NCBI GenBank assembly: GCA_002304445.1
Contig: NEVA01000026.1
Span: 1-43,509 of the forward strand
Reading direction: 5' to 3'
Source: Opitutia bacterium Tous-C4FEB
GTDB lineage: Bacteria; Verrucomicrobiota; Verrucomicrobiia; Opitutales; Opitutaceae
Length of the DNA: 43,509 nt
The notes below the pieces were generated by a model. The model saw only the letters and a program-made list of their open reading frames with translations. It was not told the DNA's origin and searched no databases. The stretch's first letter is position 1. The number at the start of each line of letters is the position of its first letter. Both the position numbers and the translations under genes were made by a program. Shown piece by piece: positions 38,790-43,359 of this stretch.

Positions 38790-39476
38790 ATGGCTCCCGA
38801 CCGTTTCGCCCCATCCGTCCTCAACGTCGCTGCGGTCGTAAAAAACTACGGCGCGCGCCGCGTGCTCGACGGCGTTTCATTCACCGTCGGTCCCGGCGAA
38901 CGGGTCGCTCTCACCGGTCCTTCCGGCAGCGGCAAAACCACCCTCCTCAACTGCCTCGGTGGCGTTGACCGGCCGGACGCCGGCTCCATCAGCGTGCGCG
39001 GCACGCCCGTCCACACCCTCGACTCCGTCGCCCTCGCCCGGCTCCGCCGCACGGAGATCGGCACGATTTTCCAGTTCTTCCACCTGCTCCCGACGCTCAC
39101 CGCCGCCGAAAACATCGAGCTCCCGCTCCAACTCATCAACGTCCCCGCCCCCGAGCGCGCCGAGCGCGTGGCCCGGGCGCTCGACCGCGTCGGCCTCATC
39201 CCCCGCGCCGCCGCCCTGCCCGGCCAGCTTTCCGGCGGCGAGCAACAGCGCGTCGCCATCGCCCGCGCGCTCGTTCACCGCCCCGGCCTCATTTTGGCCG
39301 ATGAACCGACGGGCAACCTCGATTCCGCCAACGGGGCCAACATCCTCGCGCTCCTCCGCGAGCTCAGCGACGAGACCGGGACCGCGCTCGTGCTCGTCAC
39401 CCACAGCGAGGACGCCGCCTCCATCTGCCACCGGCGGATCAACCTGCGCGACGGCCGCATCGTCTCCGGCGGATGA
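38790..39476 (+). CDS. ABC transporter ATP-binding protein (LolD/MacB/YbbA type)
   Basis: This 228-residue ATPase has Walker [10 protein letters not shown] (43-51), Q-loop in [10 protein letters not shown], signature [15 protein letters not shown] (147-161), Walker B LILADEP (167-173) and the switch His in VTHSED. Sequence style ([13 protein letters not shown]) places it with LolD, MacB and YbbA, which power mechanotransmission-type permeases acting on lipoproteins or envelope lipids rather than import. Its stop overlaps the permease start (ATGA). It forms the first gene of a three-gene unit with the permease and an AttH-like secreted protein. Confidence 0.95.
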
Positions 39477-42142
39477 ACGTGCCCGTCCTCAGTCTTCTGC
39501 TGCGGCGCTTCTCGCTGCGGCACGCCCGCCTCGCCCCCCGCGCGACGGCGCTCCTCGTCGGTATCCTCGCCCTCGGCGTCGCGGTGTTCGTCTCGATCCG
39601 CCTCGCCAACCGCGCCGCCGTTTCGAGCTTCACCCATTTCACCGACACGCTCACCGGCCAGAGCGACTTCATCGTCCAGGCTCCCACCGGCACGTTGCCC
39701 GAATCCGTCCTCCGCGAACTGCGCACCGCGCTCGGCGTCCGACCCGTGCAGATCATCCCGGTAGTCGAAGCCACTGCCGCCCAAGCCCCACGCCCCGACG
39801 AGGCCGCCGGCTTCGGCCGCACCAGTTACACGTTGCTCGGGGTCGATCTCCTCTCCCTCGCCAATCTCGCGAGCCAGAGCAAAGTCGACCGCGGCTATTT
39901 TAACCAAAACCAAAGCCAAAACCCGGGCCAAGATCTCGGCACCGGGGGCCGCGCCGCGCAAAACGGCGATGCCGGCGCCGATGCGTTTTGGCGCGCCTAC
40001 AACGCCGGCCCGCAAGTCTGGGTCAGCGCCGCCTTCGCGCCCGCCGTGCCCAAGTCCCTCGACCTCGTCCTCGACGAACGCGTGCGCACCCTCACGGTCG
40101 CCGGCGTCATCCCGACTGCGAATGAGGCCCCGCGCGTCCCGCCCACGTTGCTCATTCTCGACTTGCCGCATCTACAAATGCTCACGGGCAAAGTCGGCCG
40201 CGTGGACCGCGTCGAGTTCCTGATCGAGCCCGGCCCCCGCGCCGCCGAGCGCCGCGACGAACTCAAGTCGATCCTCGAAACCCTCGGCGGCGAACGCTGG
40301 CTCGTCACCACGCCCGGCGCGCAACGCGAGTCCGCCGAAACGATGACCCGCGCCTTCCGCCTCAATCTCACGATTCTCTCGCTCATCGCCCTGCTCGTCG
40401 GGCTCTACCTCATCTTTCAGGCGCTCGACGGCGCCGTGGTGCGGCGGCGCACCGAGATCGCCATCCTCCGCTCCCTCGGCGTCGAGGAACGCGCGATCCA
40501 AACCGCTTGGCTCACCGAGGCCGCCGTGCTCGGCCTCGTCGGCGGCGCGCTCGGCGTCGGCCTCGGCTGGGCCGGCGCGCAAGTCGCGGTGCGCGCCGTG
40601 GGCCAGACCGTCAACGCGCTCTACTACAGCAGCACGGTTGACGCCGCCTCGCTCGATCCCGGTGAGATCGCCCTCGGCCTCATCGTCGGCCTCAGCGCCA
40701 GCCTGATCGCCGGCTGGTGGCCCGCCCGGCTCGCGGCCCGCACCCCACCCGCGCAGGTGCTGCCGCGCGGCGTCGCCCCGGCGGCCGGCGGCCGTTGGCA
40801 ACGCAGCTTCGCCCTCGGCGCGATCTGCGTTTTGCTCGGCGTCGCGTTCGCCCAACTGCCGCCGCTCCGGCTCGACGGCGCGGGGCGTTTCCCGCTCGCC
40901 GGCTATGCGGCGGCGTTCTTTTGGATTTTCGGCGGCGGCCTGATGTGCGGTTGGTTGCTGCCGCTGCTCGCGAGCGCCGCCCGCGCCCTCGGCACGGTGT
41001 GGGCGCCGGGTCGCGTCGCGCTCAGTCATCTGCGCCGGCCGTCGGGCCGGCACCGTCTGTCGGTCGCCGCACTGCATTGCGCCGTCGGCATGGCGGCCGG
41101 CATGGCGATCCTCGTCGCGAGTTTTGAGCTCACCGTGCGCGGCTGGATCGAGCGTTCGTTGCAGGCCGATCTCTACATCGCGAGCGCCGGCGCGCAGGGC
41201 GCATCGACCGCCAATTTCATTTCGGCCGCAGCGGCCGACCGTCTGGCCGCGCACCCCGCCGTGGACGCGGCCGCGCGACTCACGGCCGCCCGCATTTCGC
41301 TCGACGGTATTCCGACGCTCCTCACCGGCACCGATCTCGCCCTGATGCGCGTGCGCAGCGACATGCCTTGGATCAAGGCCCCCGACGATCCCGCCCTTTG
41401 GGAAACCGCGCGCAACGCCCGCCTCGCCCTCGTGAGCGAGGCGTTCTCCGAGCGTTTCCGCAAAAAAGCCGGCGATGTCCTGCGCGTGCCCACGCCCGCC
41501 GGCCTGCAGACGCTCACCATCGCCGGCATCTACGCCGACTACGGCAACGAGCGCGGCTCAATCATGGTGGACCGCGCCCATCTCACGCAATGGCTCGGCG
41601 ACGACCGCGTGACCAACGTGAGTCTGTGGCTCAAGCCCGGCAGCAACGCCGACCTGCTGCGCGAGGAACTGCGCAAAGACTATCCCGGACTCGCCATCTT
41701 CACCAACGCCAAGCTCCGCGGCGAGGTGCTCCGAATTTTCCGGCAGACCTTTGCGATTACCTACGCGCTCGAGGTGATCGCCGTGCTCGTCGCCGTCGTC
41801 GGCCTTGCGCTCACCCTCACGAGCGTGCTGCTCGACCGGCGCGAGGAGCTCACGACCTTGCGCGCCTTGGGCTTCACCCGCCCCGAACTCGCCGGCGCCG
41901 CCGCGCTCGAGGGCGCCGTGGTCGCCGGAGCGGCCGTGGCGGGCGGACTCACGCTGAGCGTCGCCCTCGGCTGGCTCCTGATTTACGTGATCAACAAACA
42001 ATCCTTCGGCTGGACCCTCGGCTTCGCCCTGCCTTGGGGCCAACTCGCCGCGCTCGCCATGGCCGTCGTCGGCACCGGCGTCGCGGTGAGTTATCTCGTC
42101 GGCCGCTGGGGCGCCGATCTGCCGGCGGACCGGGAGGAATAA
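39473..42142 (+). CDS. FtsX-type ABC transporter permease (YbbP-like)
   Basis: This 889-residue permease has an N-terminal membrane helix (TALLVGILALGVAVFVSI), a large periplasmic domain (about 45-290) and a first FtsX membrane block. That block covers about 298-420 (LTILSLIALLVGLYLIF, then RTEIAILRSLG). Two further membrane helices lie at about 445-505. A second periplasmic domain leads to a C-terminal FtsX block from about 764 (EVIAVLVAVVGLALTLTSVLL with EELTTLRALGF). Length and duplicated FtsX layout fit COG3127/YbbP proteins paired with YbbA-type ATPases. ATG at 39473 overlaps the ATPase stop. The AttH-like gene starts 5 bp downstream. Likely role: envelope lipid or hydrophobic substrate extraction. 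Confidence 0.93.
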   Translation: MNVPVLSLLLRRFSLRHARLAPRATALLVGILALGVAVFVSIRLANRAAVSSFTHFTDTLTGQSDFIVQAPTGTLPESVLRELRTALGVRPVQIIPVVEATAAQAPRPDEAAGFGRTSYTLLGVDLLSLANLASQSKVDRGYFNQNQSQNPGQDLGTGGRAAQNGDAGADAFWRAYNAGPQVWVSAAFAPAVPKSLDLVLDERVRTLTVAGVIPTANEAPRVPPTLLILDLPHLQMLTGKVGRVDRVEFLIEPGPRAAERRDELKSILETLGGERWLVTTPGAQRESAETMTRAFRLNLTILSLIALLVGLYLIFQALDGAVVRRRTEIAILRSLGVEERAIQTAWLTEAAVLGLVGGALGVGLGWAGAQVAVRAVGQTVNALYYSSTVDAASLDPGEIALGLIVGLSASLIAGWWPARLAARTPPAQVLPRGVAPAAGGRWQRSFALGAICVLLGVAFAQLPPLRLDGAGRFPLAGYAAAFFWIFGGGLMCGWLLPLLASAARALGTVWAPGRVALSHLRRPSGRHRLSVAALHCAVGMAAGMAILVASFELTVRGWIERSLQADLYIASAGAQGASTANFISAAAADRLAAHPAVDAAARLTAARISLDGIPTLLTGTDLALMRVRSDMPWIKAPDDPALWETARNARLALVSEAFSERFRKKAGDVLRVPTPAGLQTLTIAGIYADYGNERGSIMVDRAHLTQWLGDDRVTNVSLWLKPGSNADLLREELRKDYPGLAIFTNAKLRGEVLRIFRQTFAITYALEVIAVLVAVVGLALTLTSVLLDRREELTTLRALGFTRPELAGAAALEGAVVAGAAVAGGLTLSVALGWLLIYVINKQSFGWTLGFALPWGQLAALAMAVVGTGVAVSYLVGRWGADLPADREE

Positions 42143-42147
42143 CGACG

Positions 42148-43359
42148 ATGAAAACCCCGCGCATAGTTTCCGAGGTAGGGACGCCTCTCCGAGGCGTCCG
42201 CCGACGTCGCCCGCTCTTCAATTTTATTCGTCGCCCGGACCGCGCGGAGAGCGGTCCCTACCTCCTGCTCACATTTCTCGCTCTCGTCCTGTTCACTCCG
42301 CTGTACGCCCAAACCCCGCTCACCACCGCCGAGGGCTTCGCCGTGCCGCAGCCCGGAAAAGTGTTTTCGTTTCCCCGCGACCACGGCTCGCATCCCGAAT
42401 TCAAACTCGAGTGGTGGTATCTCACCGGGCACCTCTACACCGAGGCGGCCGAGGGAAAAAGCGCCCGCCGCTTCGGTTTTCAGGCGACGTTTTTCCGCCA
42501 AGCTGCACCCGACAAATCGACGCAGCTGCAACTCGCGCACATGGCGCTGCTCGACGCGGCCACGGGGAAATTCCTCCATCAGGAACGGCTCGACCGCTCC
42601 GGCTGGGACGCCGCCGCATCCACCGAGACGCTCGACGTGCGGCAAGGTCCTTGGTCCCTGCGGCTCACCGATCCCGCCGCGATCGCCGGCGCCGAACACA
42701 TCGAACTACGCGGCGGCATCCGGGCCGAGGCCGGGCTCGCCCTCACGCTCGTGCCCGCCAAACCGCTCGTCGTCTTCGGTGAAAACAGCGTCTCGCGCAA
42801 AGGTGCCGCGCCGACCGCCGCGAGTTACTACCTCACGTTTTCCCGCCTTCGCGCCGAGGGCGAACTCACGCTCGGCACCGAGAAACTCAGCGTGCGCGGC
42901 GAAGCGTGGATGGACCACGAGATCAGCAGCAGCCAGCTCGACACGAACCAAGTCGGCTGGGATTGGGTGAGTATCCAGTTTACCGACGGCCGCGAGCTCA
43001 TGGTGTATCAGCTCCGCACGCGCGGCGGCGGCACCGATCCCGCTTCCAGCCTCACGTGGGTGGACGCCGCCGGAAAGCCCGAGAAGCGGAGTTTCAAATG
43101 GGAGGTGCTCGACGCCTGGAAGAGTCCCGAGACGGGAGCGGTCTATCCCGTGCGCATCGCCCTCGCGACGACCGATCCGGCCACCGGCGCGGCGGTGCGC
43201 TACACGCTGGAACCGCTCGCGCGCGCGCAGGAACTCGCGGGCAGCGTGGGCGGCATCGCGTATTGGGAAGGCGCGTGCCGCGTGTTCGACGCGACGGGCC
43301 GCGAGGTCGGCTCCGCCTACATGGAACTCACCGGCTACGCGGCGGAGTTGAAATTGTAA
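42148..43359 (+). CDS. Secreted AttH/CrtC-like lipocalin-type protein
   Basis: This 403-residue protein has the AttH/hydroxyneurosporene-synthase-like double-lipocalin fold (COG5621, annotated as predicted secreted hydrolase). Diagnostic blocks are EFKLEWWYLTGHL, RFGFQATFFRQ, WMDHEISSSQL, VGWDWVSIQF and YWEGACRVFD, ending VGSAYMELTGYA. The family commonly sits beside LolD/FtsX-type ABC genes, as here. The N-terminus is odd. MKTPRI is followed by about 30 basic residues encoded by an inverted REP pair, and only then comes the hydrophobic signal core LLLTFLALVLFTPLYAQT (39-56). The frame is intact through the repeat. No better downstream start exists before the signal core. Catalytic activity is not established for most homologues. 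Confidence 0.88.
   Translation: MKTPRIVSEVGTPLRGVRRRRPLFNFIRRPDRAESGPYLLLTFLALVLFTPLYAQTPLTTAEGFAVPQPGKVFSFPRDHGSHPEFKLEWWYLTGHLYTEAAEGKSARRFGFQATFFRQAAPDKSTQLQLAHMALLDAATGKFLHQERLDRSGWDAAASTETLDVRQGPWSLRLTDPAAIAGAEHIELRGGIRAEAGLALTLVPAKPLVVFGENSVSRKGAAPTAASYYLTFSRLRAEGELTLGTEKLSVRGEAWMDHEISSSQLDTNQVGWDWVSIQFTDGRELMVYQLRTRGGGTDPASSLTWVDAAGKPEKRSFKWEVLDAWKSPETGAVYPVRIALATTDPATGAAVRYTLEPLARAQELAGSVGGIAYWEGACRVFDATGREVGSAYMELTGYAAELKL
42172..42264. repeat. REPIN-like inverted pair of REP palindromes inside a CDS
   Basis: Two REP-like units face each other. Unit 1 (42172-42200) has the head GAGGTAGGGA and a perfect 9-bp stem, GGACGCCTC and GAGGCGTCC, with loop TCC. Unit 2 (42236-42264, minus orientation) has the same head and the stem GGACCGC with GCGGTCC. 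The outer ends form an 11-bp perfect inverted repeat, GAGGTAGGGAC and GTCCCTACCTC. The 35-nt spacer includes an AT-rich patch. The 93-bp element lies within codons 9-39 of the AttH-like gene and keeps the frame open. Confidence 0.8.

Follow-up and report, generated by a model that had tools for sequence, protein, structure and literature searches.

An in-frame GTAG REPIN in the signal-peptide region of an AttH-like lipocalin gene from Opitutaceae

REP elements are usually treated as extragenic, and cases at the N terminus of a protein are suspected of being misannotated starts. The contig studied here raises the question of whether a REPIN can lie within a gene and be translated as part of an export signal. 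The window, which is the whole stretch of DNA analyzed (43,509 nucleotides), is the complete contig C19 of a source genome of 3.76 Mb in 39 contigs. The closest named relatives of this genome are freshwater Opitutaceae MAGs, and the genomes compared were all MAGs or genome assemblies. A preliminary description had placed a REPIN-like element at 42172–42264, within codons 9–39 of an AttH-like gene, and these coordinates proved to be exact when counted from the ATG at 42148.

The host gene (42148–43359, plus strand) is an open reading frame for a CrtC/AttH-like lipocalin of 403 amino acids, with Pfam matches to CrtC (6.3e-40) and Lipocalin_9 (5.9e-34), that carries the REPIN in its signal-peptide part. 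The start at 42148 was also chosen by a codon-score gene finder. The upstream gene (39473–42142, plus strand) codes for an FtsX-type permease subunit of an ABC transporter (Pfam FtsX, 1.3e-27), and its stop is separated from the lipocalin ATG by a gap of five bases. A Shine-Dalgarno-like sequence, GGGAGGAA, can be read at 42132–42139 on the plus strand, 8 bases 5′ of the ATG. The hydrophobic core and the end of the signal peptide (LLTFLALVLFTPLYAQ) are encoded at 42265–42312 (plus strand), according to the translation and a reading of the signal peptide by eye.

The REPIN (42172–42264, plus strand) is 93 nt long, is translated as EVGTPLRGVRRRRPLFNFIRRPDRAESGPYL, and was recognized by its inverted arms, its fold, its repetition in the genome, and its open frame. 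The first REP unit is situated at 42172–42200 (plus strand) and the second, inverted unit at 42236–42264 (minus strand), and arm pairing leaves a spacer of 35 nt between them (42201–42235). Both units were identified by own-genome BLAST, arm pairing, and folding, and each consists of a GTAG head and a hairpin, of −17.7 kcal/mol for the first unit and −14.4 kcal/mol for the second. The GTAG tetranucleotide is present as GAGGTAGGG at both ends of the REPIN. The arms are 29 nt long and 83% complementary, and by inspection their outer 11 bp (GAGGTAGGGAC and GTCCCTACCTC) form a perfect terminal repeat, so that arm pairing and inspection agree with the two inverted palindromes described initially. 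The RNA fold of 42165–42270 has an energy of −53.7 kcal/mol (z −5.1), and none of 200 shuffled sequences was equally stable. Two inverted REP units that lie close together and fold into one long hairpin are what defines a REPIN, and the units here, 35 nt apart, do so. The frame is open throughout, and the element comes between the first residues of the signal peptide and the hydrophobic core, as had been proposed. The peptide was said to add about 30 basic residues; its length is indeed 31 residues, but not all of these are basic, as there are eight arginines and three acidic residues with a net charge of about +5.

Because there is no in-frame ATG, GTG, or TTG between the REPIN and the hydrophobic core, the REPIN is almost surely translated as part of the signal peptide, as far as the sequence allows this to be judged. 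The first in-frame standard start after the ATG at 42148 is a GTG at 42343, within the mature part. Between these two codons no in-frame ATG, GTG, or TTG occurs, and the only in-frame near-start codons are ATA, ATT, and CTG, with CTG at positions 42265, 42289, and 42301. The CTG codons would serve a reading in which a non-standard codon beyond the element starts translation, leaving the REPIN as a hairpin in the 5′ untranslated region. Di Nocera et al. (2013, PMC3733652) advise caution in this direction, as they doubt the start annotation of genes with N-terminal REPs and regard many such REPs as perhaps untranslated, and one locus of a second lineage (L118, described below) has an inner ATG after its REP. 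We nevertheless consider untranslated DNA improbable here. Besides the missing standard starts, it is opposed by the position of GGGAGGAA ahead of the ATG at 42148, by the frame and length that are kept without stop or indel in two congeners (G003 and G012) and in five species of the second lineage, and by the loss of the inner ATG in four of those five.

The codon score of the REPIN is 0.10 versus 0.31 for the mature part, the 10th lowest of 372 windows of the same size and in the manner of DNA that did not originate as coding sequence. The net charge of the n-region (K/R minus D/E) is +7 with the REPIN and +2 without it. When the REPIN is removed, the protein starts with MKTPRIVS-LLTFLALVLFTPLYAQ, which by eye is an ordinary signal peptide.

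The unit belongs to a repeat family of the source genome. With 40 of 41 candidates scored, own-genome BLAST gave 10 further matches with E < 0.06, which represent nine sites because two of the matches are the arms of a single REPIN on contig C7. The repetition elsewhere in the genome on which the initial interpretation depended is therefore present, at nine other sites. The paired pattern GGTAGGG-N45..75-CCCTACC occurs at two places in the source genome (reversed control 0) and identifies the copy on contig C7 as the one further full REPIN; in the other 12 genomes of the genus, the reversed control was 0 in eight and nonzero in four. Within the window, the 9-mer REP head is not enriched when one mismatch is allowed (6 matches, 5.9 expected), and two of the six matches are exact, both inside this REPIN. 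The copy number of the family is low in comparison with that of congeners, where 43 to 124 unit matches are found (G004, G001, and G011). None of the other nine sites overlaps a gene predicted by the codon-score gene finder. All nine are extragenic, and the AttH copy, in codons 9–39, is the only intragenic one among the ten family sites examined.

The source genome contains five RAYT (PF01797) genes, so the search for a transposase that had been suggested did find candidates, but none was seen beside this REP family. The family was seen in none of the five neighborhoods, one of which is at a contig start and lacks a flank, and other GTAG REPs occur in two of the five. When 20 neighborhoods from six congeners, a subset of the RAYTs there, were included, REP-like heads with a hairpin or array were found in three of 25 (L065, L069, and L100, the last about 1.5 kb away). 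At L069 (G000:C2:101800-104400), a RAYT-family gene lies amid an array of GTAGGAGC(C/T)CGCTTGCG(G/A)GCGATT units, and the family of this array is the REP family found in the AttH gene of the second lineage.

The contig ends 1.2 kb beyond the REPIN, repeats are frequent break points in MAG contigs, and the gene of congener G010 is split over two contigs at this place, all of which could point to an assembly artefact in which a repeat joined two unrelated contig pieces. Such an error is extremely improbable, however, since the sequences on both sides are the FtsX-AttH pair, which is adjacent in 71 of the 80 sequences examined, the frame is exact, and assemblies of different species have elements at the same stretch. 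The two contigs of G010 (L347, G010:C101, around 1610; L109, G010:C27, 1-180) are broken precisely where the REPIN has its right head, their terminal repeats match, and a DDE_Tnp_1 transposase gene lies beside one of the terminal repeats. It appears that an IS was inserted in the AttH REPIN of G010, if the two contigs are one locus, and a translated REPIN that serves as an IS target in a sister species seems a possible cost of carrying one.

Pairwise alignment of the window with the sister genome G007 gave 93.4% identity in the last part of the permease gene (777 nt) and 95.7% within the mature lipocalin part (714 nt). Between these flanks (93–96% identical) lies a block of about 145 nt (42163–42307, plus strand) that is unalignable, with a longest aligned block of 11 nt. 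The AttH gene is present in eight of 13 genomes of the genus. A REPIN is recognizable in five of the eight (G000, G001, G006, G007, and G010), decayed in two (G003 and G012), and absent in G009, and the stems are ACGCCTCTCCGAGGCGTCC in G000, CGGGTTATCCTTAACCCGCC in G001, CGGACTTCAGTCCGC in G006, and GCGTCCCTTGCGGACGCC in G007 and G010. The REPIN of G001 belongs to a TTATCC family and is likewise located between start and core. G006 has a REPIN with the stem GGACTTCAGTCC, a unit whose recurrence is known from a single locus each in G001 and another genome rather than from G006 itself. In G007 and G010, a third family (GTAGGGGCGTCC..) is present that recurs in both genomes, and here the REPIN follows the hydrophobic core, so insertion into the n-region is not a valid description of all cases. 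An inversion was considered as the cause of the order in G007 and was rejected, as the two cores showed no similarity, with alignment scores of 12 in direct and 10 in reverse-complement orientation.

No ortholog was found that keeps the residues without the palindrome, a result that would have spoken against the preliminary description. The palindromes of G003 and G012 have decayed, with equal lengths and open frames, and the two genes differ in the REPIN part by 18 amino-acid-changing and 4 silent codons. G009 has a short signal peptide with a possible remnant of a REP head (12 of 15 bases alike by eye, which could be chance). The AttH orthologs of other genera that were compared have short N termini and no GTAG REPs.

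These alleles might all descend from one ancestral REPIN at the base of the genus whose stems were altered by ordinary mutation only, without repeated arrival. The AttH tree, in which the genus is one clade (100/100) with an intact or decayed element in seven of its eight members, is consistent with a single entry, as is the left flank that G001, G003, and G012 have in common. Mutation would, however, have had to match both arms toward the resident family each time. Both units in G001 are high-copy variants of that genome, the first stem in G000 is that of its own genome's REP family, and the family in G007 and G010 is a third one in a different place relative to the core. Descent by mutation only is therefore unlikely, and one early entry with later conversion by resident copies is possible. 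Because relatives hold different repeats in the same short stretch, the AttH export signal appears to have been remade repeatedly out of mobile repeats, and the remainder of the protein to have stayed the same.

A second lineage has GGTAGGAGCCCGCTNGCGGGCGATT in frame at the FtsX-AttH junction in five species (L118, L120, L121, L126, and L129), without indels or stops among them in the REP part. With up to two mismatches, this unit is present in 33–65 copies in each of six genomes searched, one of which is that of the REP-less L127 (control 0). An inner ATG (MRLF..) is kept in L118 and L127 and has become ACG in L120, L121, L126, and L129, so the upstream ATG and the REP-coded extension are obligatory in these four if only standard starts serve. 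The tree places L127 between L118 and the other four (forks 89/92, 100/99, and 91/85), and this position implies that the REP was lost in L127 or gained twice. In the REP part, the four species show 4–10 amino-acid-changing versus 1–5 silent codons.

An inverted-repeat score of at least 12 was obtained for nine of 71 FtsX-AttH gaps, for which the shuffle maxima were 7 to 9, and three of the nine (L178, L184, and L186) are known from the score alone. The score misses the REPs of the second lineage and the element of G007 (scores 6–8), so these assignments rest on the repeat family. At the junction of L115 (G082:C41), the AttH start is spanned by a long inverted repeat from a different family (TTTTTGCGTCTTTTGCGCC..), with the basic n-region (MAAKRRKMRKK) encoded by one arm and the hydrophobic core by the other. 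The repeat has 19 pattern matches in its genome, and among 20 loci of five such genomes most matches of this type are outside predicted genes. Long inverted repeats of further kinds (CGCGGATGACG.., CACGAAA..) are found at the junctions of L130, L117, and L125.

That several repeat families have repeatedly occupied one stretch, and in two lineages, could mean that the REPIN was selected for a function. A longer basic n-region might slow or redirect export, or an mRNA hairpin that begins 24 nt past the ATG might tune translation or protect the message. Autotransporters, which have extended signal peptides, offer a comparison for the former. The net charge of the n-region ranges from +4 to +8 among six REP-bearing sequences for which it was computed and is +2 in G009, which has no REP, and the hairpin is very stable, as would be expected if either were of use. 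We give a selected function little credence. The residues change almost without constraint in G003/G012 and in the second lineage, the palindrome has decayed in two species, the element is lost in G009 and probably in L127, and REPs also occur within unrelated cytoplasmic proteins. The predicted cost of opening the Shine-Dalgarno sequence and AUG is 13.4 kcal/mol with the insert, 13.7 without it, and 11.2 ± 1.8 with codon-shuffled inserts, so that access with the insert differs little from access without it and is 1.3 sd below that of codon-shuffled inserts. For the region −20..+16, the cost is 15.8 with the insert, 16.6 without it, and 15.7 ± 2.0 with codon-shuffled inserts. An effect of the REPIN on the translation start was rejected on these figures, and with it the suggestion that mRNA structure at the start is changed. 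We think that the gene tolerates the REPIN as a passenger and is not regulated by it.

REPs in frame are not confined to this gene. In G001 and G011, 92 stretches around REP matches were reduced to 85 distinct clusters, taken from the listed G001 sites and 40 listed sites of G011, which has more (124 unit matches). Of these, 67 do not overlap a gene and 18 overlap a predicted gene; 14 of the 18, one of them that of AttH, lie within the gene and in frame, and the remaining four only touch a gene end. The gene finder was a simple codon-score script whose training set was these stretches themselves, and as it sees open frames only, the figure of 14 in 85 does not indicate that in-frame insertions occur in excess. 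Two of the 14 are a cluster near a contig edge (L259) and one with low coding scores (L290). The statement that REPs are normally intergenic thus holds for the source genome but less so for these two congeners, and the supposed rarity of an in-frame REP does not stand, given this frequency and the intragenic GTAG REPs already published (PMC3733652).

All 10 REP-host proteins scanned have Pfam domains, and the hosts include MurC-MurB, SufD, the 2-oxoacid dehydrogenase E2, glycosyltransferases, and a rhamnosidase. Three of them (MurC-MurB, SufD, and E2) were compared with relatives. MurC-MurB provides a filled and an empty allele, with EVGRVIPHAPVGLSVPDDPDSQRRVRDNPPYL in G011 and five other residues in the G004 ortholog. 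The REPs of SufD and E2 lie in a loop or linker that is variable among all relatives displayed (five of 12 sequences for SufD; 12 of 12 loci, two from one genome, for E2), so for these two, replacement and insertion are equally likely. The common rule for in-frame REPs, as these sequences suggest, seems to be a tolerant place and an open frame. The peptide IENPKSKIE(D/N)P is found in L369 (SufD, G006) and L380 (E2, G001) where congeners have a REP, and it is perhaps a second frame-entering repeat family. A full REPIN also lies within an open stretch of 719 codons on the minus strand at L076 (G004:C159, 1501-1580). A three-hairpin REPIN occupies one orthologous spot in five congeners (G008, G009, G003, G005, and G002; L077, L079, L080, L081, and L082), by eye between secDF-like and recJ-like genes.

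GTAG REPs occur in Verrucomicrobia, and the highest number of intragenic ones was reported for Opitutus terrae, a member of the family Opitutaceae (PMC3733652). According to the same source, intragenic REP dimers code for 20–30 residues, and recB of two Xanthomonas species has REPs at about the same site. The AttH element resembles these in being a pair of GTAG palindromes, often dimers there, in frame within a recognizable protein gene, here one with CrtC and Lipocalin_9 domains and an open frame. It differs in that an inner start is missing and in that several repeat families reuse the AttH stretch. The terms "signal peptide," "signal sequence," and "leader" have no mention in section 15 and further passages of PMC3733652, and a title-level literature search found no titles on REPINs in signal peptides.

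REPINs were defined as extragenic and tied to RAYT (Bertels and Rainey 2011, PMC3116915; see also PMC8266576). The AttH element shares with them the two inverted REPs with a spacer, the long hairpin, and the repetition in the genome, but it is intragenic and no RAYT was seen beside its family. The palindromic elements of Rickettsia (Ogata et al. 2000; PMC10969869, PMC3733652) likewise survive in frame in many unrelated genes. These are about 150 bp long, form ten families, and belong to an unrelated organism, and the likeness drawn here is one of behavior; RPE-4 and RPE-6 were grouped with CGTC REPs, whereas the AttH element is a GTAG REP. Intragenic, in-frame GTAG REPs are thus already known. 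What is new is that the REPIN lies in a signal peptide without an inner start, that repeat families have replaced one another at one stretch, and that in a second lineage a start codon was lost.

Most probably, then, a GTAG REPIN from the family resident in this genome stands between n-region and core of a lipocalin signal peptide, is translated within that signal, and represents an in-frame arrival that was tolerated. This reading draws on the element itself, its repetition, its frame without internal starts, the different palindromes of relatives, and open frames with drifting residues. The element would have arrived by RAYT-type single-strand transposition or been swapped by recombination with another copy, and only arrivals that keep the frame open would survive. 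The n-region may tolerate a REPIN because it needs little but positive charge and because the readable REP frame is arginine-rich. Once the element had arrived, its residues would change almost without constraint as long as the frame stayed open, and the resident element may be replaced by another family or lost. Among the genomes compared there is no closely related empty AttH allele. Since the two nearest relatives carry another REPIN, we infer insertion into an intact AttH from distant relatives.

A more tentative reading, which we hold to be possible but somewhat doubtful, is that the signal-peptide stretch of AttH is a docking site where unrelated mobile palindromes have repeatedly been taken up into a working export signal. 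It draws on at least two lineages with several GTAG REP families, on an extension coded by the REP that became obligatory after the loss of the inner start, on sister genes that are nearly identical apart from a signal peptide replaced as a whole, and on the two-arm inverted repeat of L115.

The AttH site is a natural series of alleles with several repeat families, decayed and lost elements, and a destroyed old start, which allows the doubt about the annotation of N-terminal REPs to be tested. It is also a natural case for REP-family turnover between near-identical neighbors. It illustrates how a mobile repeat can become part of a protein by landing where frame and charge matter and sequence hardly does. 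If the docking-site reading is true, export signals would be one place where bacteria make protein from mobile repeats.
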